Shown: one piece after another, positions 24,194-49,128 of the stretch | Layout of the letters: every line of letters begins with the position of its first letter | Position numbering within the stretch: position 1 is the first letter of the stretch | Source of the DNA: Vanrija pseudolonga | Taxonomy: Eukaryota; Basidiomycota; Tremellomycetes; Trichosporonales; Trichosporonaceae | Assembly (NCBI RefSeq): GCF_020906515.1 | Contig: NC_085851.1 | Span: 248,001 to 312,000, forward strand | Direction of reading: 5' to 3' | Length of the DNA: 64,000 nt | The notes under the pieces: model-generated | What the model was told of the DNA's origin: nothing | The model's database searches: none | The model's input: the letters and a program-made list of their open reading frames with translations, nothing else | Program-made: the position numbers and the translations under genes

Positions 24194-27136
24194 ATGGACA
24201 ACTTCACAGACAAGTCGTCCGAGGCCATCAAGGCCTCGTTTGAAAAGGCAGAGGAGATGGGCAACTCGCAAGGTGAGCAGGAGCAGCGTTGCCGGCCGGA
24301 GCGTAGTAGCTAACCCCCCACAGTCCATCCCCTGCACCTCACACTCGTCCTCTGGGATGAGTCGACCGCGGCCGAGACTTCTGGCCAGCCAACACTGCTC
24401 CGGGAAGCGATCGAGAAGGTCGGCGGACAGGTCCAGGTCTTCAACCGTCAGCTGTTGTCAAGGCTCAACAAGCTCCCCGTCGTCGAGCCCGCACCCTCCC
24501 CTCCCCTCCCCCTCACAAACTCGTACCACGCCGTCCTCAAGGAGGCCCAGAAGCTCCAGAAGGACAATGGCGACCAGTTTGTAGCCATCGACCACCTCCT
24601 CCTCGCCCTCATCCACACCGACCACTCCGAGCTCAAGGACATTCTCAAGGCCGCCAACGTCAAGCCAAAGGACCTCGAGGACGAGATCAAGCGCAAGCGT
24701 GGCTCGCGCAAGGCCGACTCGCGCGGCGCCGAGGACCAGTTCGAGTCGCTCAAGAAGTACTGCGTCGACTACACCGAGCTCGCGGCCGAGGGCAAGCTCG
24801 ACCCCGTCATTGGCCGTGACAACGAGATCCGCAGAGTCATCCGCGTCCTCGCCCGTCGCACAAAGGGTAACCCCGTCCTCATCGGTGAGCCCGGTGTCGG
24901 TAAGACGGCCATCGTCGAGGGCCTCGCACAGCGTATCGTCGACCGCGACGTCCCCGCCTCCCTCATCTCCCGCCTCCTCTCCCTCGACATGGGTGCCCTC
25001 ATGGCCGGCGCAAAGTACAAGGGCGAGTACGAGGAGCGAATCAAGGCCGTCCTGTCCGAAGTCGAGAAGTCTGGCGACGAGGGAACGCAGATCATCTTGT
25101 TCATCGACGAGATGCATCTCATCATGGTAAGCATTATCAGGTGTATCTCGTCACTTAACAGGACGTTTGGAACGAGAAAACTCGTTGAAAGACGTAGAGG
25201 AAGATGTTGGGTGGTGGTACTGAAAAGTGCCACACTCAACTTCTCTCCAAGTTTTCATTCCATCCGTCCTCTTTTGAGACGTTCTACTGGTGCTAGAAAC
25301 AGACGCTGACACTCACAGGCCGGCAAGGACTCGTCCGGTGGCATGGACGCCGCCAACCTCCTCAAGCCGATGCTCGCCCGTGGCAAGCTCAAGGTCATTG
25401 GTGCCACTACCCTAAACGAGTACCGCGAGAACATTGAGAAGGACTCTGCCTTTGAGCGTCGATTCGCCCAGGTCATTGTCGAGGAGCCCTCAGTCCCCGA
25501 CACTGTCGCCATCATGCGTGGTATCCGTGAAAAGTACGAGACCCACCACGGTGTCCGTGTCATGGACTCGGCACTCGTCCTCGCCGCCCAGCTCGCCAAG
25601 CAGTACCTTACTTCTCGCCGACTCCCCGACTCGGCCATCGACCTTCTCGACGAGGCCGCCTCGGCCGTCAAGGTTGCCCGCGAGACCCGCCCCGAGGCCA
25701 TCGACGACCTCGAGCGCAAGAAGCTCGGCCTCGAGGTCGAGATCCACGCCCTCGAGCGTGAGAAGGACGACGCGTCCAAGGAGCGTCTGGAGAAGGCCAA
25801 GAAGGCCATTGCCGACATCCAGGACTCGCTCGGCCCCCTCAAGCGCGAGTACGAGAACGACAAGCGCCTCGGTGACCAGATCCACGAGGTCCGCCGCAAG
25901 ATTGACGAGCTGCGCGCCAAGGCCGACGACGCTGAGCGTCGCTACGACCTCGCCACGGCCGCCGACATCCGTTACCAGGCCATTCCCCAGCGTGAGGCCA
26001 AGCTCAAGGAGCTCGAGGCCAAGGAGGCCGAGAAGGGCGCGTACATGAAGGAGGTCACCCCCGAGATGATCGCCGAAGTCGTCGCCAAGTGGACCGGTGT
26101 CCCCACCCAGAGTCTTGTCGAGACCGAGAAGACCAAGCTGCTGCGTCTCGAGAAGCTCCTCAGCAAGAAGGTCATCGGCCAGCCCGAGGCTGTCAAGGCT
26201 GTCGCCAACGCCATCCGTCTCAGCCGTTCGGGTCTCTCCAACGCCAACCGCCCCATCGCGTCCTTCCTGCTTGTCGGTCCCTCGGGTACCGGTAAGACGC
26301 TCCTGGCCAAGACGCTCGCCAAGGTCATGTTCAACTCGGAGGACGCCATGGTCCGTATCGACGCTTCCGAGTACTCTGAGCGCCACTCGATCTCGCGTCT
26401 GATTGGTGCCGGCCCCGGTTACATTGGCCACGAGTCTGGTGGCCAGCTCACCGAGGCTGTCCGTCGCAAGCCCTACTCGCTCATCCTCATCGACGAGATT
26501 GAGAAGGCTGCCCGCGAGTTCCACCAGCTCTTCCTCCAGGTGCTCGACGACGGTCGTCTTACCGACGGCAAAGGACGTGTGGTCGACTTCCGCAACACCA
26601 TCATCATGATGACCTCCAACACTGGTTCCGTCTACCTCAACGAGAACCCCAGCGAGGGTCCTGTCAAGCCCGAGGTGCGCGAAAAGGTCATGGGTGCCAT
26701 CCAGGCCACGTTCCCTCCCGAGTTCATCAACCGTATCGACGAGATCATCCTCTACCGCTCGCTCAGCCGCCACGACATGCGCCGCATCGTCAATGTCCGT
26801 CTGCAGGAGGTGCAGGAACGTCTCGAGGCGAACAACAAGAAGATCAAGCTGGCTGCCGACGATTCGGCGCAGGAGTGGCTCGCCAACGCAGGCTACTCGC
26901 CCTCGTATGGTGCCCGCCCGCTCGCGCGTCTCATCCAGTCCGACATCCTCAACCCACTCTCCAAGCTCATCCTCCAGGCGCGCATCCGCGACGGAGAGAC
27001 GGCCAACGTCACGACCGACCACGTCAAGAACCGTCTGGTTGTTGTTCCCAACCACGACGCCGACGTCACCGAGCCAGACGACGAGGACTCGGACCTCGAC
27101 GACGGCATGGACGTCGAGGTCGAGGAGGTCGATTAG
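24194..27136 (+). CDS. HSP104: Hsp104/ClpB AAA+ disaggregase
   Basis: A hexameric ATP-driven chaperone that threads aggregated proteins through its pore with Hsp70/Hsp40 help. The model has 899 residues, normal length, in three exons (introns 24273-24323 and 25127-25318). The N-domain comes first. NBD1 has Walker A GEPGVGKT (214-221), pore loop KYKGEY and Walker B ILFIDEMH. The coiled-coil middle domain ([20 protein letters not shown]) is next. NBD2 has GPSGTGKT (614-621), pore loop [15 protein letters not shown] and an Arg-finger region. The tail is very acidic ([19 protein letters not shown]), like the co-chaperone-docking end of yeast Hsp104. The second intron is unusually long at 192 nt and holds a small hairpin. 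The start has a good CACC context. Confidence 0.98.
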
Positions 27137-31788: not shown

Positions 31789-34700
31789 CTAGAATCCGAT
31801 CTCTGCGACCGTCAGCTATGGTTACACTCTCAGGCCAACTCACTTTTAAAGATGAGGTCGAGACTGGCCAGAGATACAGGTTTTACTAGACTGTGGGTGT
31901 CAGCAGGGCTGCCATCGCTGTACACCACCAGCCGACTCACTATCCATCAACACCACTGGCAAACGCCTGGCGCTTGTCGTCCGAGGTGGCAAGGCCAGTC
32001 AGAGCAAAAATTTTGGTACGGTGAGACGGCGAGCGCGACGGCTTCGCATGTCTGCGGGCCGATTCGATGCGGCGGATCTGCTGCGTCGCTTCGTACCCGT
32101 TCATCACGGGCATGGTAATATCCATCAGGACGACGCTGGCGGCGTTAGCAAGCCGCACGACCTGTATTACTCACTCCCAGTGGCTGGCCGGCGTCTTCTC
32201 AAACAGATCGACACCGGCAGCACCGTTGATCGCCTCGGCATACTCGAACCCGTGCTTCTTGAGGAAAGCAGCGAGGACACGCCGGTTGATGGCATTGTCC
32301 TCGACCACCATGACGCGCGCGGGGCGAGGGCGTCGGTTGATGAGCACGTCAGCGGGGATGGTCGCCGCCTTGAGCATTGCGCCGCCGTCAGCGAGTGAGA
32401 TGGTCGACATGGTTGATGTCGGCGACGACGGTGATGACGAAATCGGTGGTTCTTCTTCTGGCGTCGGGCGGCCACTTCCGCTGTTGCCGTGGTAAGAGAC
32501 ACCTCGCGGCGGGAATGAAGGTCGCTCGGCGTTAGCCCGATCACGACTGTCGTCCGAGCGTCGGCGATGGAGGTAGCTTGATGAGCGCCGCCGGCCGGAC
32601 CCGTTGATCACAGTGTCCGTCGACATGGTGCTGTCGCTCGACATTTCGCGGTGCGGCGGGCTAGGACGAGCCGTCGGCATGTAATTCTCGCTATCCGACG
32701 AATCGATTCTGATCGTTTCCATCGTCCCAGCGATCGTCTTGAGATCGCGGTGGCTCTCCAGCCACTTGACTGCCTTGTCGAGCTCTGCAATAAAGGCAGT
32801 CGGTCCCACCGGCTTGGGCATTGTACGTGTGTACGTATCATGTCGGTCGGTACCGGGTTCACGGCTAAACGTCTTGATTTCGTTTGTGACGCCGGCGACA
32901 TCATTGACGAAGAGAATGTCGGCAGAGTTGACATCGCCGATGACTTTAAAGCCACGGTTCGCCGCATAGTTGCCAAGCACCTCGATGCTGAGCTGATGAC
33001 CAGTATGGCGGGGATCATAACCTGAGAAAGCAATCGTGTAGCCCTGTCCAAACCAACTGGCGGCACCGTCCTCGTCCTCGTCCTCTTCGTCGGCTACCTC
33101 GACTTCGAACGTGACACGGATCTGGGTGCCGACGCCTTCGGCAGACCACACCTCGAGGTCGCCATTCACGGCGTCGGAGCGCACAATGCTGTTGACGATT
33201 GAGAGACCCAAACCGGTACCGGGCTGGAGCGGGTTCTCCTGCGCAAACGGGTGGAAAAGCTGGTCCTTGAGGAAGTCTTTGCCAATGCCCTTTCCGGTGT
33301 CGACCACGGAAAGCTCAACTGGGAACCGCTTGGCGCCAGGCGAGTGCTGGCCCTCCCTCAGAATGACCTGGACGTATCCTTCTTTTGTAAACTTGAGCGA
33401 GTTGCCGTAGAGGTTCATGAGTATTCTTCGCAGGCCACCAGATTCGCACACGACGTTCCAGCCCTTGGCGCGCAAGCCAATGTCGATGACTGTTTCAACA
33501 CCCGAGAGGTTGCGACTGATGTTGACACGTTGGTCGTACGGTAATAGTGATAGCGGTGGCGGGGCATAGAAGCTGCCGAGATCCGAGTCGCCAACCTGCA
33601 TCGCGCGGGCGCGCTGTCCCATCCAGCAGCTCTCCACAGTCTGCTCAATAACCTTGGCAAGGTTGACTGTTGAAAACTTGATCTGGCGAGTGGTAGCACC
33701 GTTCTTTGTGGCACCAGACAGCTTTGTAAAGTCGAGGACATGGTTGACCGTCTCGATCAGCTGCATGCCGCAGGTGGCGACGGTGGCCAAGTATGCTTGC
33801 TGGTCGTGGTCGAGCGGCGTGTCCTTGAGCAACTCGGCGGCGGCCAGGATACCATGTAGCGGTGTTCGCAACTCGTGGCTGACCGATGAGATGAGAACGC
33901 TCTTGGACCGGTCGGCGAGCACCATGCGGCGGCGGAGGACTGCCGACAGGATGATGACACCAATGGCGCGGAGGAACTGAAGTTCGTATCCTTCGAGGAA
34001 CTGCTTGCCCTTGTCCAGCGTGTACGCGCAGATCAACGCAAATGGTTGACCGTCCATGCCAAACACTGGGACGACCATTGCGTACTTCAGCGCCGACGAG
34101 AACATGTACCGGATCCATGTTGGCACCACGTTTTCAAAGATTTTGCCGTCGCGGTTGTTGCACAAGAAGTCGGACAACCTCTCGTGCTCAAACGCAGTGA
34201 GAGGGCGCGTGGGCGGCGTGGAAGGCGCAGAGGCGAGTACAGGGAACGCAGAGATCGGTCCGAATGTGTCGGATTGCTCCAGAACCGCTGCGTCTGCGCC
34301 CGGGGCATAGGGGTTGGCGCGGTAGATGAACTTTTTCCTGTCGCCACTAGAGACGGTGATGCGCTCGAGCTGGCTAATGTCGAGAATGGTACACCCATCG
34401 AGCTCGAGGGTTGTGCGGACGAGCTTGGCGGCACGGCTGTAGACCTGGTCCATGCGGCTCGCAGCTTCAAAGTTTGCGCCGACAAACTTGTCGTCAATCT
34501 CGAGACATTCACGCGTAAACTTCTCCATCGACGTCTGAATCTTGTCGCGGGTGGCGAGTTGGAGCTGAGCGAGTTAGCGCTACTGCAGCGGGATCGCTGC
34601 CACATACCTTGTCACGCCAAAGCTCCATCTCGCGCATTACGACGGCTGCAAACTCCTTCAGAATGTGCCTCGACCGCGGGGTAAATTCCTTCCGTGGCTT

Positions 34701-36749
34701 GTCGTCCAGGATGCAGAGGGTTCCGAGGTTGTAGCCATCAGATGTACGCAACGGTGCGCCAGCGTAGAACCGGACATGCGGCTCTTCCAGAACATGTGGG
34801 TTGTTTACGAATCGCCAGTCAGTGTCCGTGTCTAGTACGACGAACGGCTCGGGACTGTTGTTGAGAATCGCGTGTGCCGACATTGTCTGGTTTCTTGCTC
34901 GCTCGGGGCGGGCAAAGGCGGTCTGTGACTTGAGCCACTGCGTATCCGAGTCGATAAAGTTGAGGAGCACGAGTCGGGTGTTGAACACGAGCTTGGCCAT
35001 GTGGACAATGCGGTCAAAGTTGGGGTCACCAGCCGAGTGCCAGATGTTGTAAGAGTATAGGGCCTTGAGGCGCTCCTTTTCGTTTGGCGGCTCCATGGCC
35101 GGCAAGAAGCCGTACTGATAGTAGAATGCGCCGAGCTCGCTGGGGTGGACTACGGTAGGGATAAGGTTCTCACCAGGATCCGAGTGGACTGGGGTAACAC
35201 CTGTCGAGCGGCGCGGGGGCACAGAGCTGAAGTAGTCGTCTGCAGAGTCAATGACCCCACTCCCCAGCCTGCTCTGAACGCGGGGCTTGGTGCCCCGGCT
35301 TAGATCAAAGCTAGTGCGGGATGGCCCTTCATTGAATGGTGTACCCATGGGGCTCGCCTCGTAGTGGGACATGTCATTGAGCAAGTGATTGCTCGACCCA
35401 GACCCACTGGCAGCGAGGGACAAGCTCCGGCTGATGGCATAGCCCCCCTGCACCGAACCATTGGGGCTGTCGCTTGTCGAACCAATTGGCGGGGTGCCCA
35501 CAAAGTACGATAAAGGGTCGACCAGCTCTCGTTCCGGGCTGGGCGCTCCCAGTGGCGAGAACATTGCCTCTGGAATTGTCGATGAAGCCATGCGAACCGT
35601 GGCGGCCGCGACAGCATACCCCGGGGGAAACTCGAGCTTCTCGGGTTCTGGTCGGGGGCGCGATGGGAGGTTCTCGAGCTCCATGGCCTTTTGTCTTCCA
35701 GCCATGGAGGCCGCCATTGACAGCGGCTGAGTAGGCTGCGGGACGCCGAGGGGCACAACCGGCCGCGCGACTGCAGGACCATGTGTCAGTGGCGGAGGGG
35801 AGAGCGGCGAGGCCGACGACCCATCCGTAGCCGAGGACGGGGCCGACTTCCAAGGGGGGCGACGAGGCGCCTTCTTGCTGTCCTCGGATGTGGGACGAGA
35901 CAAGGGCATGGACGCTGAGCTGGATAGTGGCGCGCTCGACTGTTGCGTGACCGTCGTCCCCACAGTGATCGTCGCCGTCGTCTCGTGCGGGTCCGGAATG
36001 TTGGGTATCCGCACAGGATCGAACCGACCAGCAGCATACGCGACGCCAAACGCCTCCCAGTTCACCTTGCGCAACCGTTCCGTGTCCTCGTCTCCGTTCA
36101 TGTCAATGGCGACGCTGCGCGGGTGTGTCGTCGAGCTAAACGAACCCGAGCGCTCCGACAAGACGGGGCGCGGGGGGCCTACTGGCCTGGGGTCGGCCAG
36201 CGCCTGAAGGCCATCGTAGCTGTCGAGCTCGTCGAGCTTCTGGGCCACGGGGGAAGCCTTGCGCGATCCCGCCGACAGCGACGCTGGCTGGCTCGGCGCT
36301 GTTTTTGGGCGGCCCCGCGACGTGCGACGAACGGGGACCGGTATGGGCGATGTGGGCACGCTTGTTGCCGAGGGCGCGAGGACCGGCGGGCGGGACAACG
36401 GCGACAGAGGTGCCGATGTAGTGTACGACATGCGTAAAGAGGCCGCGCTGCCGCTCCCGACAGAGAGTCGTTCGGGATCTGTGAACGATGACCAACCTGG
36501 TGCTGGCGCTGCCGGGAGTTTGATGGGGCGCGGTGGAGGAGCTCGGCGCTCCTTTTCGTCTTCGGCAGGGAGGTTGACATGGTTTACATTTGGGTCAGTG
36601 TGGAGACGGCGCAGAAAAGCGGCGCCTCCGGGAGGACGGTTGGGCGTGGGTTCGGCCGGCGGCGTGGGTACTGATGGTGGTGTTGAATCTGATGGGGAGA
36701 GCTCTGGCGGCCGCATGAGGGGCGGCGAGATGTTGGCACCGATTCCCAT
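31789..36749 (-). CDS. Hybrid histidine kinase with two GAF-type domains and receiver
   Basis: A two-component sensor of 1595 residues, cytosolic by the absence of TM helices. The first 530 residues are disordered Ser/Pro-rich sequence. A GAF domain follows (about 535-714; FYAGAPLRTSDGYNLGTLCI), then a second GAF-like unit (about 740-925). The H-box is SSVSHELRTPLHG (phospho-His about 944). ATPase boxes are N (RRILMNLYGNSLKFT), G1 (VDTGKGIG) and G2 (GTGLGLSIV). The receiver runs from VMVVEDNAINRR to VVLMDITMPVMNG (phospho-Asp about 1516) and YLVKPVSL (Lys about 1579). Introns are 34565-34607, 32136-32174, 31891-31940 and 31803-31843. The last coding exon is just 14 nt. The start (CACCATGG) is chosen over upstream in-frame codons by context. 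Its input signal and HHK group are not evident. Confidence 0.92.
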
Positions 36750-38461
36750 GGTGATGTGTGGGTGGGCGGGAGTCGGTGTGTGGGTTGTGGTCAATGTTGT
36801 TGTCGTCGCGAAGTCAGGGGGTGTCGGAGGCTGGCTGGCTGTTGGTGACTTGGGGAGGTGGTGGGTCGAGGTTTTGAGATGACTTTGTAGCAGCGGCGCG
36901 AGGGACGACACCGCACGCCACGACGCCGTCCGTGTCTGTCGCTGCTCTGCGCCGCTGAGGTCACCAGTGGCGTGTGCGTGGGTGGGGGGGAGGTGCAACG
37001 GGCCGTGCGGCGTGGGTGGTTGGGTGAGTGGGTGACGAAGAGTGGACAAAGAGAGTGACAAAGAGGAAGGAAGGAGGAAGGTGGAATGGAATGGCGCGGG
37101 GGCAAGGTGTGAGTCTGGAGTGGGTGTGGTGTGGATGCCGCGGGCGTGCGGCGAGTTTGGTCAGAACTGGGCTGGCTGGGCCGCCATCGGTCACTTACTT
37201 GGCCTAATGCCGTTCCTCGACCCTCCTCTACGACATTGTCCTATTCGTGACAAGTGTTCAGCGCAAAGCGGCTCCTGCCGCCATGCGGCCGGGGCTGTTA
37301 CTGCTGCTGCCTGCTGCATGATGCACACTCCCACGACCCACTGCTGCAGTTGCACAGTTGGGAGCATGTTGTTCCCAGCAGGGAGGGTCTTCAGAGCTGT
37401 CCGTCGGTGTAACCCCAGGCCTGGGCCACAAACAGGTGCCAGGCGGCAACTCTCTCAGGCAAGACTGCTGGCAATCTTCAACTCAACTCGCCTCGCCTCG
37501 CGGCCGCCGACGCGAGCTCGCTTCGGTAGACCCCCATTCGCGAGGCATGCACAACCAGCCAGCAGTCTGTCGGGTCGGGCCCACAATGACACAATGGCGC
37601 CTCGCTCTTGGGCACATGTCAGGCCACGCTCCGTCCGTGGCGTCGAGCTTGATGCACACACCCTTCTTTTGCCAGACTAGAGCATACACATGCCCCCATC
37701 CGCTGCTAGCCTGTGCGTGCCGACTCGGCACCGCCGCCGTGTGTTGGAACCCATCCAAGCAGCTGCAGCAGTGGGTTCCTGGTCGCCCCGCCAAGGTAGA
37801 CAGCCCGGCGGTTCCCGTGGGGGATGATTTAGTCTCACAACCGCTCCACAACTTTTCGGCGCAGCTAAAGATAGGCTCGGCCTGTCGGATCTCGGACCCC
37901 TCATGTCCGTTGCTGCGGGCAGCGGCAGCGAGGCAGGAGCAGCAAGACGACGCAGTCGACGAGAAGCACATGGTGCAGAGTCTCGGCGCTCACCCCGACC
38001 ATGCCATGCATCACTGCGACCTCGACGCTTGCCAGCAGCTCCGTTGGTGACTGCCTGCCTCGAAACTGGTTTTGCCTCGGCTGCGCCAGACAGCCGGCTC
38101 GCGGCCTCTCGAGGCTCAGCAGCCAAGCGAACAAACACGCGACAACGACGTCACAGGGGCCGCTGGCGCAGGGACAATGCGGAATGTCAGTCGGTAGTCC
38201 AGGCAGGCACTTCGAGATGTGCGGCTGCAATGCAGCCAGCCAGCCAGCACGCAGACCGTCCTGCATTGGCTCTCCCGCACCAGCCGCCCACGCAAACACC
38301 CCCCATGTGGCAGCAGCATGGGGAGGAGCCGTTAAACCGGATCACGCCTAGTGGTTCGGCACACCGAGAGGCACAAACGCACAAACGCTGCTGGCCGGGA
38401 CTTGCTGCTAATGATCACTCACTGATCTGATGCCTACATTGCGTGTGTACTTGCGTCGCTA
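36750..38461. other. Long upstream region of the histidine-kinase gene
   Basis: About 1.7 kb without a supported gene. Several open frames exist (for example plus 37358-38050) but their composition is Cys/Trp/Gln-rich and motif-free, and they overlap open frames on the other strand. A CAGCCAGCCAGC run lies near 38230. It probably holds a long 5'UTR or promoter plus the 3' flank of the next gene. Confidence 0.5.
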
Positions 38462-42389: not shown

Positions 42390-42999
42390 GCGAGGGAAGG
42401 AGCCACAACCCAAGACGAGCGTCGATGGGAGCCAGCGAGCTTGGTCACGACGCACAGACGCAAGCAGATATAATCATACACCGGGCTCATTGAGGCCACA
42501 CAGACTTGTAGATGTTTGTACATGTTGCATGGTAGAGCATAGATTGTGCCAGGGGGGTGGTGTGGCGCGTGGCAGTATCATGGCCGAGAGCCAACTCCCT
42601 CCCCACACCTCCTCCCAACCTCCTGCCCAGCTGTCACGACCACACTATCACCTCCTGTGTACCGTCCGGCCCCCGCGCCCCCGAGCCGGCCCTCCGCATT
42701 GACACGGCGCCGCCGATACAGCCCACGCCCTCCGCAGCCCCGTAGCCCTCGTTGGCGCTTAGAGCGAAGCGGTGCGTGTGTGTGGAATTTCCCACCGCGG
42801 CACACTGCGCCCGAGCGTACGCCCAGCCGTCTACCGGCTACCGCTTCCTAGCACCGCACGTACTACAGGCGGAAGCGTGCGCATCGAGTGCGAGCGTGCG
42901 TCGAGCGCCATGAACCTGCCTGCGTATATGAAGCACACACGCTCGGCCGTCACCCTGTCCATCACCTCGCCACCTCGCCACCTCGCCACCGCACACAAA
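42390..42999. other. Intergenic, promoter of first cysteine-rich peptide gene
   Basis: No gene. A TATA-like GCGTATATGAAG lies about 75 bp before the next ATG, and (CACCTCGC)n repeats lie just upstream of it, at about 42962-42989. Confidence 0.6.
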
Positions 43000-43317
43000 A
43001 TGAAGCTCCTCGCCCTCCTCTCTCTCTTCACGCTCGCTATCACCTTGCCGACCGACCAACTCGAACGCGACGCCTCGGTCGCCGACGAGCCCGTGCACCT
43101 CGTCGCGAGACGCGGCGCCGTCGACCTCGACCCCCACCCCGCCCTTCTGGCGCGCGGCTGCCTCCTCCCCTCGGCGTGTGGCCGCCTCTGGGGCCCAGTA
43201 CCGTGCGAGGCGTACTGCCAGCCATTCGGGTACCACTACGCCCTGACTTCCACTGCGGGGTGCGCGGCTGGGCAGAGTAGGTGCTGCTGCACTTATCCGC
43301 CGCGGCAGGCCAAGTGA
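43000..43317 (+). CDS. Secreted cysteine-rich prepropeptide 1 (defensin-like pattern)
   Basis: A 105-residue precursor. MKLLALLSLFTLAITLPTD is a signal peptide. A pro-segment with LERD and two possible processing sites (VARRG, and LLARG directly before the first Cys) leads to a compact Cys-rich domain. Cysteine spacing is C-x5-C-x8-C-x3-C-x14-C-x6-CCC. Eight cysteines would give four disulfides. The C-x3-C followed by C-x-C (inside CCC) is the arrangement of CS-alpha-beta defensin folds. Two genes nearby encode the same pattern with different sequence between the cysteines. A single exon, ending YPPRQAK. Function is unknown: antimicrobial peptide, effector or signalling peptide are options. 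Confidence 0.8.
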   Translation: MKLLALLSLFTLAITLPTDQLERDASVADEPVHLVARRGAVDLDPHPALLARGCLLPSACGRLWGPVPCEAYCQPFGYHYALTSTAGCAAGQSRCCCTYPPRQAK

Positions 43318-43640
43318 GAATCTGTAGGAGACTTGGTGTGTTATGGACGCTTGAGGGCGAGGAGGGAGCGTGGGCTGTAGTTGTCAAGAGGGCGATGTAT
43401 CTGTGGCGATCTCGATGTAGCATGCCGACTCGCGGCGTTGGCAACGGGGCACTCGGTAGGTTGATCGGGGTGTCAGGTAGATCTGGGTCGTGGCACTGGT
43501 GGCCAATAAGCCAACTTCCGTGACCAACGTAATCATGCTCCATACGCCACACGGCACCCAGTATCCGCACTGCATCACACTAGACTGGAAGAAGGCTCTT
43601 CCCTTGTGATGGCGGAGGCTGCATCGGTCTAGTGGAACAC
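43318..43640. other. Intergenic between convergent peptide genes
   Basis: A short convergent 3' flank; nothing recognised. Confidence 0.6.
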
Positions 43641-43922
43641 CTACAAGCGGCCGCCACCACAGCAGCAGCGCTTCTGGGTCCACGGGCACTTCCACGAGCT
43701 CATAAAGTCGAATTTACGGCCGTGGGCGTTGCGGCACCACTTCTTGCAGTCTCCCCACCAGCTGCAGCTACTGGCGTAGTAGCAAACCGGCTCGCGCGCG
43801 GCCAGCGCGTGCTCATCGCCGATGGTGTTGGCGCGGTCCTCCAGCTGAGCGGGCTTCGTGTCGGCCGGGGCCGCGATCGTGCTTGCGGCGACGAGGAGCA
43901 AGGTGACGATGGCGAGCTTCAT
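43641..43922 (-). CDS. Secreted cysteine-rich prepropeptide 2
   Basis: A 93-residue precursor related to its neighbours. The signal peptide is MKLAIVTLLLVAASTIAA. The pro-segment has QLEDR, matching LERD and LESR in the other two copies. A monobasic LAAREPV site precedes the first Cys. The mature part has C-x5-C-x5-C-x3-C-x15-C-x6-CCC and shares FMSS and KRCCC with copy 3. It is rich in Trp and Lys/Arg, so a cationic mature peptide is likely. A TATA-like CATAAGAG lies about 90 bp upstream. The start is the Met of the signal peptide; the frame is open further upstream but without signal character. Confidence 0.82.
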   Translation of the reverse strand: MKLAIVTLLLVAASTIAAPADTKPAQLEDRANTIGDEHALAAREPVCYYASSCSWWGDCKKWCRNAHGRKFDFMSSWKCPWTQKRCCCGGGRL

Positions 43923-44615
43923 GGTTGGTTGGGTAGGCTGGTGTCGTTGCAGGCGTGGCTTTGGGGTGGGTGCTTCAGGTCGGTGGGAGTTGGAGGAGCC
44001 TTTTCGCACAGCTCTTATGTCTGCGTCGTAGTGAGGAGGACATCGTCGCCAGTGGGTGTACTGCGCATACGTGACGAACGGTAGGCGACCGGAGAGACAC
44101 TCCGCCTCCCATGTTCGCACTTCTGTGGTCAAAGGTCACACTGCCAAGAAGCCCCCTGGATCCTAGACCTCAGTGGCCAGCACGTCTCCATCACATTGGC
44201 ACGCCGAAGGGCATCAGAGGTGTTGGTAGCGGCCTCGTCCACTGGCCGTCAGGATAAGCCCACGCCAAGACAACCCACTTGCCCGCCTGCTGTCAGAAAT
44301 GGGGTCCGGCACTCCATTGTGACAACTTTATCTTTCGGTGCACTACCGTTTCAGTGCCATTCGGGACGCAGGAACTAGGACCTCCAACTACTCTGTACCT
44401 TGACACCTGCAGACGCCAGGCACATGTTTCATCTGGCGAGGAGTGGCATTGCTTTCGTGAGGCGGCCACAGTGGCAAATGAGAGACAGTGGTACGTGTCG
44501 TCGGCTCGCGCCATGCTTTCTTTGCGGCTGTACTCCCGACCACGCTTGCCCGAACAGGCTCTCCACACCAGACTGCCTCACATCACTTTACTCCCTTGCT
44601 TATCTACACGGGGAG
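43923..44615. other. Intergenic, upstream of peptide gene 2
   Basis: The promoter of the minus-strand peptide gene 2. It includes one copy of a ~120-bp duplicated segment (separate entry). No ORF supported. Confidence 0.55.
44253..44372 (+). repeat. Duplicated upstream segment, copy A (partner at 45414-45536)
   Basis: The motif GATAAG-CCAAG-CAACCCACTTG-CCGCCTGC-GTCAGA and about 70 following bases (including TGTGAC, CGTTTCA and TCGGGAC blocks) recur in the same order and orientation at 45414-45536. The copies lie about 330 and 520 bp upstream of peptide genes 2 and 3, which transcribe leftward. This supports tandem duplication of a whole gene-plus-promoter unit. Confidence 0.7.
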
Positions 44616-44891
44616 TTACTTGCAGCAGCAGCGCTTCTTGCCAAGGTTGCAGTTCGACGAGCTCATGAACCCCGCGAACTCGCGCCGTTGGTCGCGGCAG
44701 AAGTCCTTGCAGCTATATGATACCCACAGGACACCAAAGTATCCACACGAGCTAGAGTGCAGACAAGCCGCGCGGGTGTCCAGCTCGTGGGTCGTGTCGG
44801 TGCGGCTCTCGAGGTCTGCGGGACCCGTTTCGGTCGGGGCCGCAATCGCGCTGGCGGCGAGGATGAGGGCGGTGGCGAGGGCGAACTTCAT
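44616..44891 (-). CDS. Secreted cysteine-rich prepropeptide 3
   Basis: A 91-residue precursor. The signal peptide is MKFALATALILAASAIAA; an in-frame upstream Met (44906) is less likely because it would displace the signal start. The pro-segment carries DLESR and a LDTRAA site two residues before the first Cys. The mature pattern is C-x5-C-x11-C-x3-C-x15-C-x6-CCC, ending KKRCCCK. A good TATA element (GCATATAAAG on the coding strand, about 44977-44986) lies 90 bp upstream. Closest relative is copy 2, which has the same orientation and a similar promoter block. Confidence 0.82.
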   Translation of the reverse strand: MKFALATALILAASAIAAPTETGPADLESRTDTTHELDTRAACLHSSSCGYFGVLWVSYSCKDFCRDQRREFAGFMSSSNCNLGKKRCCCK

Positions 44892-46101
44892 GGCAGCGTT
44901 GAGCATAGCCTTGCTTTGTCTGTGGTGTTGTGACTTGTGATCTGGAGGCTGTCTGGGCTTGTAGCTGGTCCGGAGACTTTATATGCAGCTCGGTGGGGAG
45001 CATTGGGGGTAGCACACGCGCACGGCATGTACGCTGTCGAGGAAGTTGTGTGCAGCCCGACTCCATGCCTCACCTCACGCTTGGAGGACCAACTGATTCG
45101 TGGTGTATATTTACTGCGCTAAGAGACCCACTCGTCCGTCCAGATTGCACTTGTCTCCCCGTTGATGGCAATCAAGACATAGGATTGCGCACGAGGTTAC
45201 ATACATGGGCCCGAAGGTGAGTGCGGGCGTAGCAAGACGAGCAGCTTCGAGGTTGCTGCCACCATGTAGTGGTGGTGACTCTGACGTCAGAGGGCTGTGG
45301 CGATGTGCTTCAACCGAGGTCACGGGAAGTGTGCCCGCCCACATCGCGTTGTGACACCGATGGATATCTACGCGCCTCTGGGAGACCTGGCCTCATCCGC
45401 GTAGACGGACTGCGGATAAGGCTCATGCCAAGCCAACCCACTTGTCCGCCTGCCGTCAGACCTTACGAACCGATTCAAATGTGACGCTTCTTACAATGAC
45501 TTGCAGCGTTTCACAGTTCCAGCGACAATCGGGACGGAAAGCTTAAACCCAATGAGCGTTCCATCTGATTCACATGTCCGTTTCTTTCACGCCGGGGCCG
45601 GGGCCCGTGTCACATCGCCTTGCACGATCCCGAAGTCACAGCTCCTCGAACGAGTCGTGGCAGCGGGCGTGAGGTTGTTCTGTTGCGCATATCACTCACT
45701 CCTGCAGGTATGAAGCGATCCTACACCGTCCACTCGGCTGTGCAGGTTGGACGGCGGGTGACGGCCTGTCTCCCGCACCCCATGGGAATGTCGGTGAAGG
45801 TATGGGGGAGTGTTTCGTCATGCCCGCCGATCTGCCATACAAAGTGGCACTTGTGAAGACAGCGGCGGCAGCGCTCTCCTTGGGCTCGTCCTGTCCACAT
45901 GGGAAGAGGATCGCCAGACCATGCTGGACTGTATCGCTGCCCCCTCCGACCCGCCGGGTTCCGGGGTCCCCGGTGTGGCGACCACGTGTTTCCAAACATA
46001 GCTTCGTGATGCGCGTGATGCGCTGCCTCAGAAGCGCGGCGGCTCCAGCTCGTCATCCCGACACGCACGGCACCAAGCACACTTCCGCCATTCAACGCGA
46101 C
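44892..46101. other. Intergenic between peptide cluster and F-box-like array
   Basis: 1.2 kb without a supported gene. It contains copy B of the duplicated promoter block (45414-45536). No fourth CCC-type peptide was found on either strand here, although copy B could mark the edge of a lost unit. Confidence 0.55.
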
Positions 46102-47052
46102 ATGACCGCTGGGATAGACGTCGGGAGCTACCCCCACCTCTTGGACCTCATCCTGGCCTACGCGCCGACCGACACCCTCCTAGGCTGGCGCGCGACCTGC
46201 CGTGCGGTGCGGGAGAAGGCCGACGCGCTCCTCTTCCGGCACATCATCTTGGGCGTAACACAGGAAGGGTACACTCCGCTCTCACTATCTGGTCACCGGT
46301 TGCCTCTCCCGCCAGGCAGTGATACGGACACTCCCCTCGCACATACGACGACCATCGACGCGGGGACGGACGCAGTCCTCCGGACTCAGCTCGAGCCGGA
46401 CCCGAGCGTCCTCCCGACCTTGTCTCACACTCTCCCAAACCTGCGCACGGTGCGCGTGAACGGCACGACGCGCCTCCCCGACCATGCGGCGCCGACGATC
46501 AACCCGTGGCCTTTGACCCTGCACTGCCTGGTTCTCTTCCCCCATGCCGAGCCCGTCGCCCGGTCGAGCTGGGAGACCCACGAGTTCCGGGACTGGGTCG
46601 GGGCGGATTCCGTCGCGCGGATCGTCGAGCACTACCGCTTTGGTGAGGGAGAGATCTGGGCCGGCCGGCGCTTGTTCATGCGGCACAAGTGGGGGCGCGA
46701 GGAGACGGTCATCATGGTCTCGAGCGAGGAGGCGACGACAGACTGGAGTGCTCCCGCCCTTGCGGTGCTCAAAGAGCTCGCATACCGCGCCCGCAGCGCC
46801 ATTACGCGCACGACAGACGGGTCGCTGACCGTCGTCGACCTCAACGCTCCCAGCGGCAGCACCGACGCAGTCATCGACCAGGTCTTGGCGGAGGTCGAAG
46901 ACGCCGTTCAAAACCACTTATGGCGGTCCTCCAGGCCCAGGCCGAACACCTTCGCGCCCATCGTTCGCGCCAAGCTGCGTTTGCTATCCCGCGAACAGTA
47001 CATCTCACAGGTTGGGATGGCGCAGTTTCTGCTCGAGACGACGGAAGAATAG
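46102..47052 (+). CDS. F-box-like array member 1
   Basis: A 316-residue, single-exon protein, first of the array. An N-terminal F-box-like helix set (YPHLLDLILAYAPTDTLLGW, then RATCRAVREKADALLFRHII) would bind Skp1 and make this a substrate receptor of an SCF ubiquitin ligase; that role is inferred. The rest has alternating beta-type segments (LRTVRVNGTTRL, LTVVDLNAP) and the family's C-terminal box, here LSREQYISQVGMAQFLLETT. The gene is closer to member 2 than to the others (shared EEA/EQ-FLLET ending). The start is the ATG nearest the F-box; the frame is open 300 nt further upstream without similarity to other members. Confidence 0.72.
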   Translation: MTAGIDVGSYPHLLDLILAYAPTDTLLGWRATCRAVREKADALLFRHIILGVTQEGYTPLSLSGHRLPLPPGSDTDTPLAHTTTIDAGTDAVLRTQLEPDPSVLPTLSHTLPNLRTVRVNGTTRLPDHAAPTINPWPLTLHCLVLFPHAEPVARSSWETHEFRDWVGADSVARIVEHYRFGEGEIWAGRRLFMRHKWGREETVIMVSSEEATTDWSAPALAVLKELAYRARSAITRTTDGSLTVVDLNAPSGSTDAVIDQVLAEVEDAVQNHLWRSSRPRPNTFAPIVRAKLRLLSREQYISQVGMAQFLLETTEE

Positions 47053-47157
47053 AAGCAGCCATGTGGCACAATAGCTTCGGCGCACCAGCCGTCCCCCGGC
47101 CCATTGTTCTCCTTCACAACTTCTCTCTCGCTCTCTCTCTTCACACCACAGCACACC

Positions 47158-48192
47158 ATGCCCATCGACGCGGAAGGCCACCCGCACATCATCGACCAGA
47201 TCCTGCTCCACGCGCCGCGGGCGACGCTCCTCCGCTTCCGGGGCACGAGCAAGGCGTTCCACAAACGCATCGACGCGCTCTTCCTGCCCCATGTCATCGT
47301 GCGGATCGGCCCACACCTCGACGTGCCAATTTTCGACTCGTACCTGCTAGGCAGGCTGCCCCTCCTACCGGCGCGGAAGCTCCACTACGACGCCGACCCC
47401 GTAGCCCACTATGCCGCGCACTACTGCGACCACGGCACGCGGCTGGAGCACATCACCACCGTCGACGCGCGCGTCGTCGCCATCCCCAACTTTGCCCTGC
47501 AGGAGTGGGAGGGCAAGCGGCATCCCCTGGCACGTGCGCAGGCCGTCTTCTCCAACGTTGCCACGGTGCGCGTGCACGGTCGGCGCGGCCCGCGCCCCGC
47601 AAGCAACATCCCCGTCGTGGAGCCCACACCCGGGAGGCCCCAAACGCTGATCGTGTTCGACAACGAGCCCGCCGCCGACTCGTACGGGCGGATGGACGCG
47701 CGGTTCTGGGGCTTTGTCGACATGTCGCAGGTGAACAAGCTCACCAAGCGCGTGCGGTGGGACACGGTTCCGTTGCAATGGGACAGGATGACACCCGATC
47801 TCGCCCTCCCCGCCGGCCTCTGGCCCAAACAGGACGTGGTCATCTTCGTGCAGTTCGACGCCGCGCCTATCCCGAGGATCACGTGGAGCCCGTACGCGCT
47901 GCGCGCTGCCGCCGCGATCGTCAGAAAGCACACTGCGGAGAAGCTGTACAACTTTCCCCGGGGCGTGCCCCGTCCGCAGTGGACGCTGGTCGACCTCGAC
48001 GCTGTGGGGGACATCAGCGACGCCGACGCACTGGAGCGTGTGTGGCTCGACAACCACGAGTGTCCCGACTACCGGGGGCAGGTGACGGCGCAGATCGAGG
48101 AGGCTGTCCGCCCCAGGCTGTCCCTTCTCACGCGCGATCAGTACGCCGCGCGCGTCGGCGCCGAGCAGTTCAAGCTCGAGACCGAGGAGTAG
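47158..48192 (+). CDS. F-box-like array member 2
   Basis: A 344-residue single-exon protein. The F-box-like start is HPHIIDQILLHAPRATLLRF followed by RGTSKAFHKRIDALFLPHVI. The central part contains ATVRVHGRRGPRP, TLIVFDNEP and DVVIFVQF, matching the VVFG and VIVLS strands of other members. It ends LTRDQYAARVGAEQFKLETEE, the same C-terminal box as member 1. The ATG follows a TCTCTCTC pyrimidine tract typical of starts here, only 105 bp after member 1's stop. The pair most likely arose by tandem duplication. Confidence 0.75.
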   Translation: MPIDAEGHPHIIDQILLHAPRATLLRFRGTSKAFHKRIDALFLPHVIVRIGPHLDVPIFDSYLLGRLPLLPARKLHYDADPVAHYAAHYCDHGTRLEHITTVDARVVAIPNFALQEWEGKRHPLARAQAVFSNVATVRVHGRRGPRPASNIPVVEPTPGRPQTLIVFDNEPAADSYGRMDARFWGFVDMSQVNKLTKRVRWDTVPLQWDRMTPDLALPAGLWPKQDVVIFVQFDAAPIPRITWSPYALRAAAAIVRKHTAEKLYNFPRGVPRPQWTLVDLDAVGDISDADALERVWLDNHECPDYRGQVTAQIEEAVRPRLSLLTRDQYAARVGAEQFKLETEE

Positions 48193-49042: not shown

Positions 49043-49128
49043 AGGCCACGACGGGGATCGAACCCGCAATCTCATGATTACAACCGTCTTAATCGTAGTC
49101 ATACGCCTTGCCATTGGGCCACGCGACC
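49043..49128 (-). tRNA. tRNA-Arg(ACG), with 14-nt intron
   Basis: The minus strand reads GGTCGCGTGGCCCAATGG... and folds as a cloverleaf. The 7-bp acceptor stem has two G-U pairs. The D arm is GCC/GGC, the anticodon stem TATGA/TCATG, and the T arm GCGGG-TTCGATC-CCCGT. The loop C-T-ACG-A is followed by a 14-nt intron (TTAAGACGGTTGTA) at the canonical position after base 37. It closely resembles fungal tRNA-Arg(ACG) in the GTGGCCCAATGG and CTACGA parts. ACG becomes ICG and reads CGU/CGC/CGA. It lies between the HAM1 gene and a truncated F-box-like remnant. Confidence 0.88.

Follow-up and report, generated by a model that had tools for sequence, protein, structure and literature searches.

The stretch examined here, the window, covers 64,000 nucleotides of the basidiomycete Vanrija pseudolonga (Trichosporonales), at C3:248001-312000, on a chromosome of 4,264,791 bases in a genome of 24.87 Mb. 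It carries three neighbouring genes, A, B and C, whose uninterrupted, intron-free open reading frames (ORFs) encode small cysteine-rich prepropeptides (Table 1). Each precursor starts with a hydrophobic leader, continues with an acidic stretch that contains LER, LEDR or LESR (net charge -3 in A, -3 in B and -4 in C, from residue 19 to the first cysteine), and ends in a basic eight-cysteine domain (+3, +7 and +5, counted from the first cysteine). The spacings between cysteines ahead of the terminal CCC are 5, 8, 3, 14, 6 in A, 5, 5, 3, 15, 6 in B and 5, 11, 3, 15, 6 in C. Alternative in-frame ATG codons at 42910 and 44906 would lengthen A by 30 and C by 5 amino acids.

The three ORFs, their coordinates, the eight-cysteine code and the prepropeptide layout are all as an earlier note on this DNA had claimed, while some of its details need adjustment. 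The signal peptides that it assigned to all three genes correspond to leaders that are hydrophobic by a Kyte-Doolittle test, the sole basis for the assignment. Its tandem cluster is a group of three neighbours and not a simple tandem, with A on the forward and B and C on the reverse strand. A single arginine was placed immediately before the first cysteine, and in fact lies 2, 4 and 3 positions ahead of it (ARG-C, AREPV-C and TRAA-C in A, B and C). The motifs KRCCC and FMSS, described as kept in all three, are found in B and C, with SRCCC and LTST in A.

Table 1. Window genes, their predicted mature peptides (both in window positions) and the other arrays of the family (chromosome positions)
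Feature	Position	Strand	Description
Gene A	43000..43317	+	ORF and translation; prepropeptide of 105 amino acids, stop within coordinates
Gene B	43641..43922	-	ORF and translation; prepropeptide of 93 amino acids, stop within coordinates
Gene C	44616..44891	-	ORF and translation; prepropeptide of 91 amino acids, stop within coordinates
Predicted mature A	43156..43314	+	Starts after Arg52 (putative cleavage site); G-C-x5-C-x8-C-x3-C-x14-C-x6-CCC, then an 8-residue tail
Predicted mature B	43644..43793	-	Starts after Arg43 (putative cleavage site); EPV-C-x5-C-x5-C-x3-C-x15-C-x6-CCC, then GGGRL
Predicted mature C	44619..44771	-	Starts after Arg40 (putative cleavage site); AA-C-x5-C-x11-C-x3-C-x15-C-x6-CCC-K
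g1-g8	C3:233949-240036	all +	Array about 50 kb upstream of A-B-C, same chromosome
h1-h4	C2:3377493-3379794	all -	Genome protein search and stretch scan
i1, i2	C2:1616298-1617263	+	Genome protein search and stretch scan

A family at four sites

Both the exact cysteine code, sought in six frames, and a looser version of it occur three times in the window and not once in 200 dinucleotide-preserving shuffles, and the looser code is also absent from six array-free 10-kb stretches located nearby or beside the chromosome C2 array. The GC content at third codon positions (0.85 in A, 0.88 in B and 0.82 in C), together with matches to paralogues and to relatives outside the genome, indicates that all three genes are coding.

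The window holds three members of a V. pseudolonga family that counts 17 genes or more, spread over four sites, and that we regard as virtually certain to be real. The count is a lower bound from protein searches of the genome, in which the best candidates were scored, and from scans of fetched stretches; it leaves out genome matches on C1, C4, C6 (two) and C7 (two). The full code, C-x(5-6)-C-x(4-14)-C-x3-C-x(11-16)-C-x(5-11)-CCC, is present in 15 of the 17 genes, the exceptions being g6 and i2, both of which lack the cysteines C2 and C5 (numbered C1 to C8 along the code). Single-protein matches join the sites into one family, the weaker of them leaning on the shared code as well. B and C are 49% identical (E 2.2e-14) and A is 44% identical to its paralogue g8 (E 5.4e-15), and further matches connect B with g7 (E 6.5e-11), g1 with h3 (E 8.2e-5) and C with i1 (E 6.2e-4). 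The precursor layout recurs too: among the 11 chromosome C3 members, nine have a net charge of +3 or above and ten have a negative pro-segment, and the end of the pro-segment is basic, with L-x-x-R in many members and LEKR in h1.

Public gene models fuse adjacent members, P0001 joining most of g6 (minus its CCC end) to g7 and P0008 joining a piece of g4 to g5, in a region that includes 540-2974 of the stretch C3:236000-245999. Outside the counted family, the reverse strand at C6:1790233-1790499 bears a secreted-looking cysteine-rich ORF of 88 amino acids with a family-like leader and no CCC end (third-position GC content 0.94). A TATA-like box lies upstream of five of the 11 chromosome C3 genes, an uncontrolled observation that is given no weight here.

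Relatives in other genomes and divergence of the mature peptides

Three profile searches over 5.8 billion proteins gave 10, 7 and 4 matches, corresponding to 15 distinct proteins: six from V. pseudolonga (one of which is B), two from V. albida (Q8F55_002499 and Q8F55_002522) and seven further outside proteins. The searches depend on shared 5-residue words, and distant relatives can escape them; within that reach, no genus other than Vanrija is named among the matches, and no database protein was retrieved for A or C. The V. albida pair consists of relatives of g6 and of B/C that are 23 gene numbers apart, presumably on the same contig, and in V. pseudolonga g6 and B are separated by 54 kb. Some of the other outside relatives also appear to be paired on shared contigs, namely P0004 with P0007 (related to g8 and g6), P0005 with P0012 (A and B/C type) and P0010 with P0013 (g5 and g4). 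Taken together, the V. albida spacing and the paired relatives suggest that the gene arrangement is older than the split of these species.

Several members are strongly kept between relatives. Identity of the mature part to the nearest outside relative is 39/44 for A (P0005), 40/46 for g8, 35/46 for g5, 35/49 for g4, 41/42 for i1, and 44/47 and 41/47 for g6 (P0007 and P0009), so that these six retain 71-98% of their mature residues. For B compared with P0012 and P0006, 25/43 and 27/42 residues of the leader and pro-segment are identical, against 9/34 and 13/33 of the mature non-cysteine residues, and C behaves alike. P0012 and P0006 are about equally near B and C and may be paralogues; B/C may be a fast-changing pair only if these two proteins are its orthologues. 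The idea that B/C alone combines a stable leader with a variable payload was dropped, since leader identity exceeds mature non-cysteine identity in all 28 pairs compared among eight sequences (six paralogues, P0006 and P0012).

The mature parts change fast between paralogues. Ratios of nonsynonymous to synonymous divergence (dN/dS, NG86 method) are about 0.6-1.0 over four paralogue pairs; for B and C, dN and dS are 0.39 and 0.39 in the leader and 0.62 and 0.95 in the mature part. As dN does not exceed dS in any of the four pairs, we make no claim of positive selection. The rapid divergence that the earlier note had read from the window holds between paralogues; between species, several members are well conserved.

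Predicted fold and disulfide pairing

The earlier note had likened the peptides to the cysteine-stabilised alpha-beta (CS-alpha-beta) fold of defensins, and had proposed structure prediction of the mature parts as a check. AlphaFold2 models of mature A (predicted local distance difference test, pLDDT, 85.2; predicted template modelling score, pTM, 0.58; helix 14-24, strands 27-32 and 41-46) and mature B (pLDDT 81.8, pTM 0.54; helix 16-24, strands 26-32 and 41-49) show the arrangement expected of that fold, with C-x3-C predicted within the helix and the hairpin predicted to end in a strand that carries CCC. The two models draw on a mostly common alignment. Foldseek searches with the models found no significant structure match; the weak matches include several plant defensins, one scorpion toxin and LURE1.2. 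Pfam gave no family above the cut-off, and its sub-threshold matches are mostly defensin or scorpion-toxin models, among them AtDEF-like against B (E 0.02, under the cut-off). NCBIfam gave nothing useful. Against solved structures, the B sequence returned chance matches alone (best E 1.8) and the alignment profiles reached E 0.9 and 0.18; in the second of these profile searches, long neurotoxins, at E 0.76 or weaker, and a scorpion neurotoxin at E 3.1 were likewise judged to be chance. At the level of the cysteine framework, C..Cx3C..C..CxC is present in 22 of 27 sequences through C2, C3, C4, C5, C6 and C8, A, B and C included, and the five without it are those lacking C2 and C5. The CS-alpha-beta reading thus draws on two models of moderate confidence and on weak structure and Pfam matches, with no match reaching significance, and we consider this fold or a close variant of it probable.

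How the eight cysteines may be paired can be approached from their loss. C2 and C5 are both present in 22 of 26 genes, both missing in four, and never found one without the other. The four (g6, i2, P0007 and P0009, with P0016 being the annotated form of i2) represent two lineages. The simplest reading of this joint loss is that C2 bonds C5. In the canonical framework the bonds are C3-C6 and C4-C8 in the numbering used here (PMC5234102); these, with C2-C5, would leave C1-C7 as the fourth. Hence C1 would most likely bond C7, which stands in the middle of CCC. Placed on the reference array of ten positions in PMC5116183, this extra cysteine would fall between positions 8 and 9. In g6 (1822-2169 of the stretch C3:236000-245999), P0007 and P0009, where C2 and C5 are gone, a new CxxC stands ahead of Cx3C.

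A more elaborate proposal has three parts. C7, in the middle of CCC, would point to the other side of the last strand and bond the N-terminal C1, which would brace the CS-alpha-beta core on either face of its sheet. On this especially stable scaffold Vanrija would run several arrays at once, with A, g6 and i1 as fixed members and the pair B/C diversifying against competitors. Finally, the loss of C2-C5 as a unit in the g6 and i2 types would reflect a scaffold tolerant of bond swapping. We consider this combination unlikely, and its odds were lowered somewhat because the excess of leader over mature identity is general between paralogues.

Known systems, candidate role and alternatives

The CCC-ending eight-cysteine code is the published motif of the group 2 defensin-like (DEFL) peptides of wheat and Leymus, CX{3,21}CX{2,12}CX{3,4}CX{3,15}CX{4,23}CCC, and the type is said to occur in fungi on the basis of one Fusarium oxysporum protein, EXK23984.1 (PMC6329339). 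Of the 27 sequences, 18 fit this broad pattern, A, B and C among them; four of the misses are due to loop length alone and five to the lack of C2 and C5. Group 2 DEFLs and the Vanrija peptides are alike in code and in being secreted, a likeness of pattern and not of compared sequence, and no plant or Fusarium DEFL member was among the matches of the word-dependent profile searches. The two differ in that the mature peptides predicted for the four wheat members are neutral, whereas nine of the 11 computed Vanrija members are at +3 or above, and in the acidic pro-segment, unmentioned in the section on group 2 DEFLs, the arrays and the basidiomycete yeast host of the Vanrija genes (PMC6329339).

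Basidiomycete yeasts of the genus Malassezia have defensin-like peptides of the family fDEF2 (PMC4165938), and the Malassezia peptides maglosin and masysin belong to the fDEF families (PMC4165938, PMC5234102). The fDEF families share with Vanrija a signal, the C...Cx3C...C...CxC core and gene duplication, and some also an acidic pro-segment with a basic end, intron-free genes and basidiomycete yeast hosts (PMC4165938, PMC5234102). By description, their canonical framework has six cysteines; Vanrija adds two, one of them inside C-x-C. Macins such as hydramacin likewise form a fourth bond from an extra N-terminal cysteine to one near the last strand, as proposed for C1-C7 in Vanrija; in macins it is C1-C7 of the reference array, and the partner lies ahead of the C-x-C pair, whereas in Vanrija it would sit within that pair, between its two cysteines (PMC5116183). 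In layout, the nearest case with tested activity is cylindracin/PRI3 of Cyclocybe, which has 95 amino acids, a signal, an acidic pro-segment ending in L-E-G-R before Ala, and a basic eight-cysteine domain; it is Gly-rich and a product of the mushroom cap, and the likeness noted here is one of layout (PMC11532979). Its 59-residue eight-cysteine domain, starting after the LEGR, inhibits moulds and damages membranes (PMC11532979).

The earlier note had taken a CCC-ending family in a yeast to be undescribed. For the pattern itself this does not hold, as it has been published for plants and Fusarium (PMC6329339) and defensin-like peptides are known in Malassezia yeasts (PMC4165938). For a multi-array CCC family in Vanrija or other Trichosporonales, no description was found in the open-licence literature among the matches listed, mostly titles and the beginnings of abstracts, and a term search of the main text of a 2025 review of antifungal yeast compounds found neither 'defensin' nor 'Vanrija' (PMC12715866). 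What is new is the multi-array family, the cysteine code being already known.

We propose that the genes encode secreted defensin-like peptides. The hydrophobic leader would direct the precursor into the secretory pathway, and the acidic pro-segment with its basic end would keep the basic peptide quiet until a Kex2-like protease, or another one directed at Arg, removes this segment. Once free, the peptide of about 45-60 residues would form four disulfides around a CS-alpha-beta core: the helix cysteines C3 and C4 would be bonded to C6 and C8 in the final strand, C2 would pair with C5, and the most likely partner of C1 would be C7. After secretion the peptides, most of them cationic, may attach to some component of the envelope of rival microbes, which they would inhibit or permeabilise, and separate arrays would cover separate targets. 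We lean modestly towards microbial antagonism as the main role, by analogy: a leader, an acidic pro-segment, a basic residue and a basic disulfide-rich peptide are the layout of silenced antimicrobial precursors. The complete explanation, from silencing pro-segment to CS-alpha-beta core and antagonism, is one we favour narrowly. Several observations weigh against it. The APP copper-binding domain matches the model of A as well as defensins do; the Gly two residues before C5, belonging to the GXC of the gamma-core, a general but not universal defensin feature (PMC5116183), is found in none of the 22 full-code sequences; g4 is neutral and g6 has a net charge of only +1. Antimicrobial function has been suggested to be lost in most Zymoseptoria members (PMC5234102), and native cylindracin is seemingly uncut and leaves yeasts and bacteria uninhibited (PMC11532979).

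The CS-alpha-beta scaffold also serves toxins and inhibitors, and the peptides could act as protease inhibitors, as metal or surface binders, or in defence against nematodes or arthropods; the missing gamma-core Gly and the low charge of g4 and g6 suit such roles. The positive charge of most chromosome C3 members and their negative pro-segments are the usual layout of an antimicrobial precursor, and we find a non-antimicrobial role unlikely. It is also rather improbable that the peptides adopt a different disulfide fold and share cysteine spacing alone with CS-alpha-beta proteins through convergence. That every structural and sequence match is weak, and that the copper-binding domain fits A equally well, would agree with such a fold; both models, though built on mostly shared alignments, place the helix on C-x3-C and the hairpin on CCC, and the sub-threshold Pfam matches lean towards models of defensins and scorpion toxins.

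In plants, defensin-like ligands, LURE among them, act through receptor binding, and the Vanrija peptides could similarly be recognised by a receptor of other Vanrija cells, as self-directed signals in mating, density sensing or kin recognition. The leader being more alike than the mature non-cysteine residues in every pair compared, the contrast between B and P0012 or P0006, and the presence of LURE1.2 among the weak structural matches are in keeping with this. A conserved leader with a variable mature part is equally expected of antimicrobial arsenals, however, A, g6 and i1 are strongly kept between relatives, and no receptor gene was found nearby among the eight window ORFs scanned, so that self-signalling appears distinctly improbable. 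As for chance ORFs or dead genes, the lack of a database protein for A and C and the fused annotation of some neighbours would fit; set against the shuffles, the third-position GC content, the conservation in relatives and 17 open paralogous ORFs, this explanation is scarcely credible.

Elsewhere in the window, two adjoining ORFs of 416 and 344 amino acids at 45802-48192 (+) are similar to each other by eye and have an F-box-type look, with no Pfam match at 0.01. Two further adjoining ORFs at 32174-37160 (-), one with a GAF domain and the other with HisKA and HATPase domains, may both be exons of a single hybrid histidine kinase. An ORF at 25310-27133 (+) with AAA_2, AAA_lid_9 and ClpB_D2-small domains is Hsp104/ClpB-like, and ARAGORN predicts a tRNA-Arg (acg) at 49043-49128 (-).

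A link to the Cryptococcus humicola fungicide was considered and rejected, that fungicide being a cellobiose lipid. If confirmed, the antagonism proposed here would add peptides to the antagonistic means of a group from which a glycolipid fungicide is known. It would also extend CCC-type defensin-like peptides, which we found reported from plants and one Fusarium alone, to a Trichosporonales yeast. The family would then provide 17 naturally occurring versions of a single scaffold, some conserved, some divergent and some bond-swapped, from which the use of an extra cysteine inside C-x-C could be studied, as well as short, stable candidates for antimicrobial screening.
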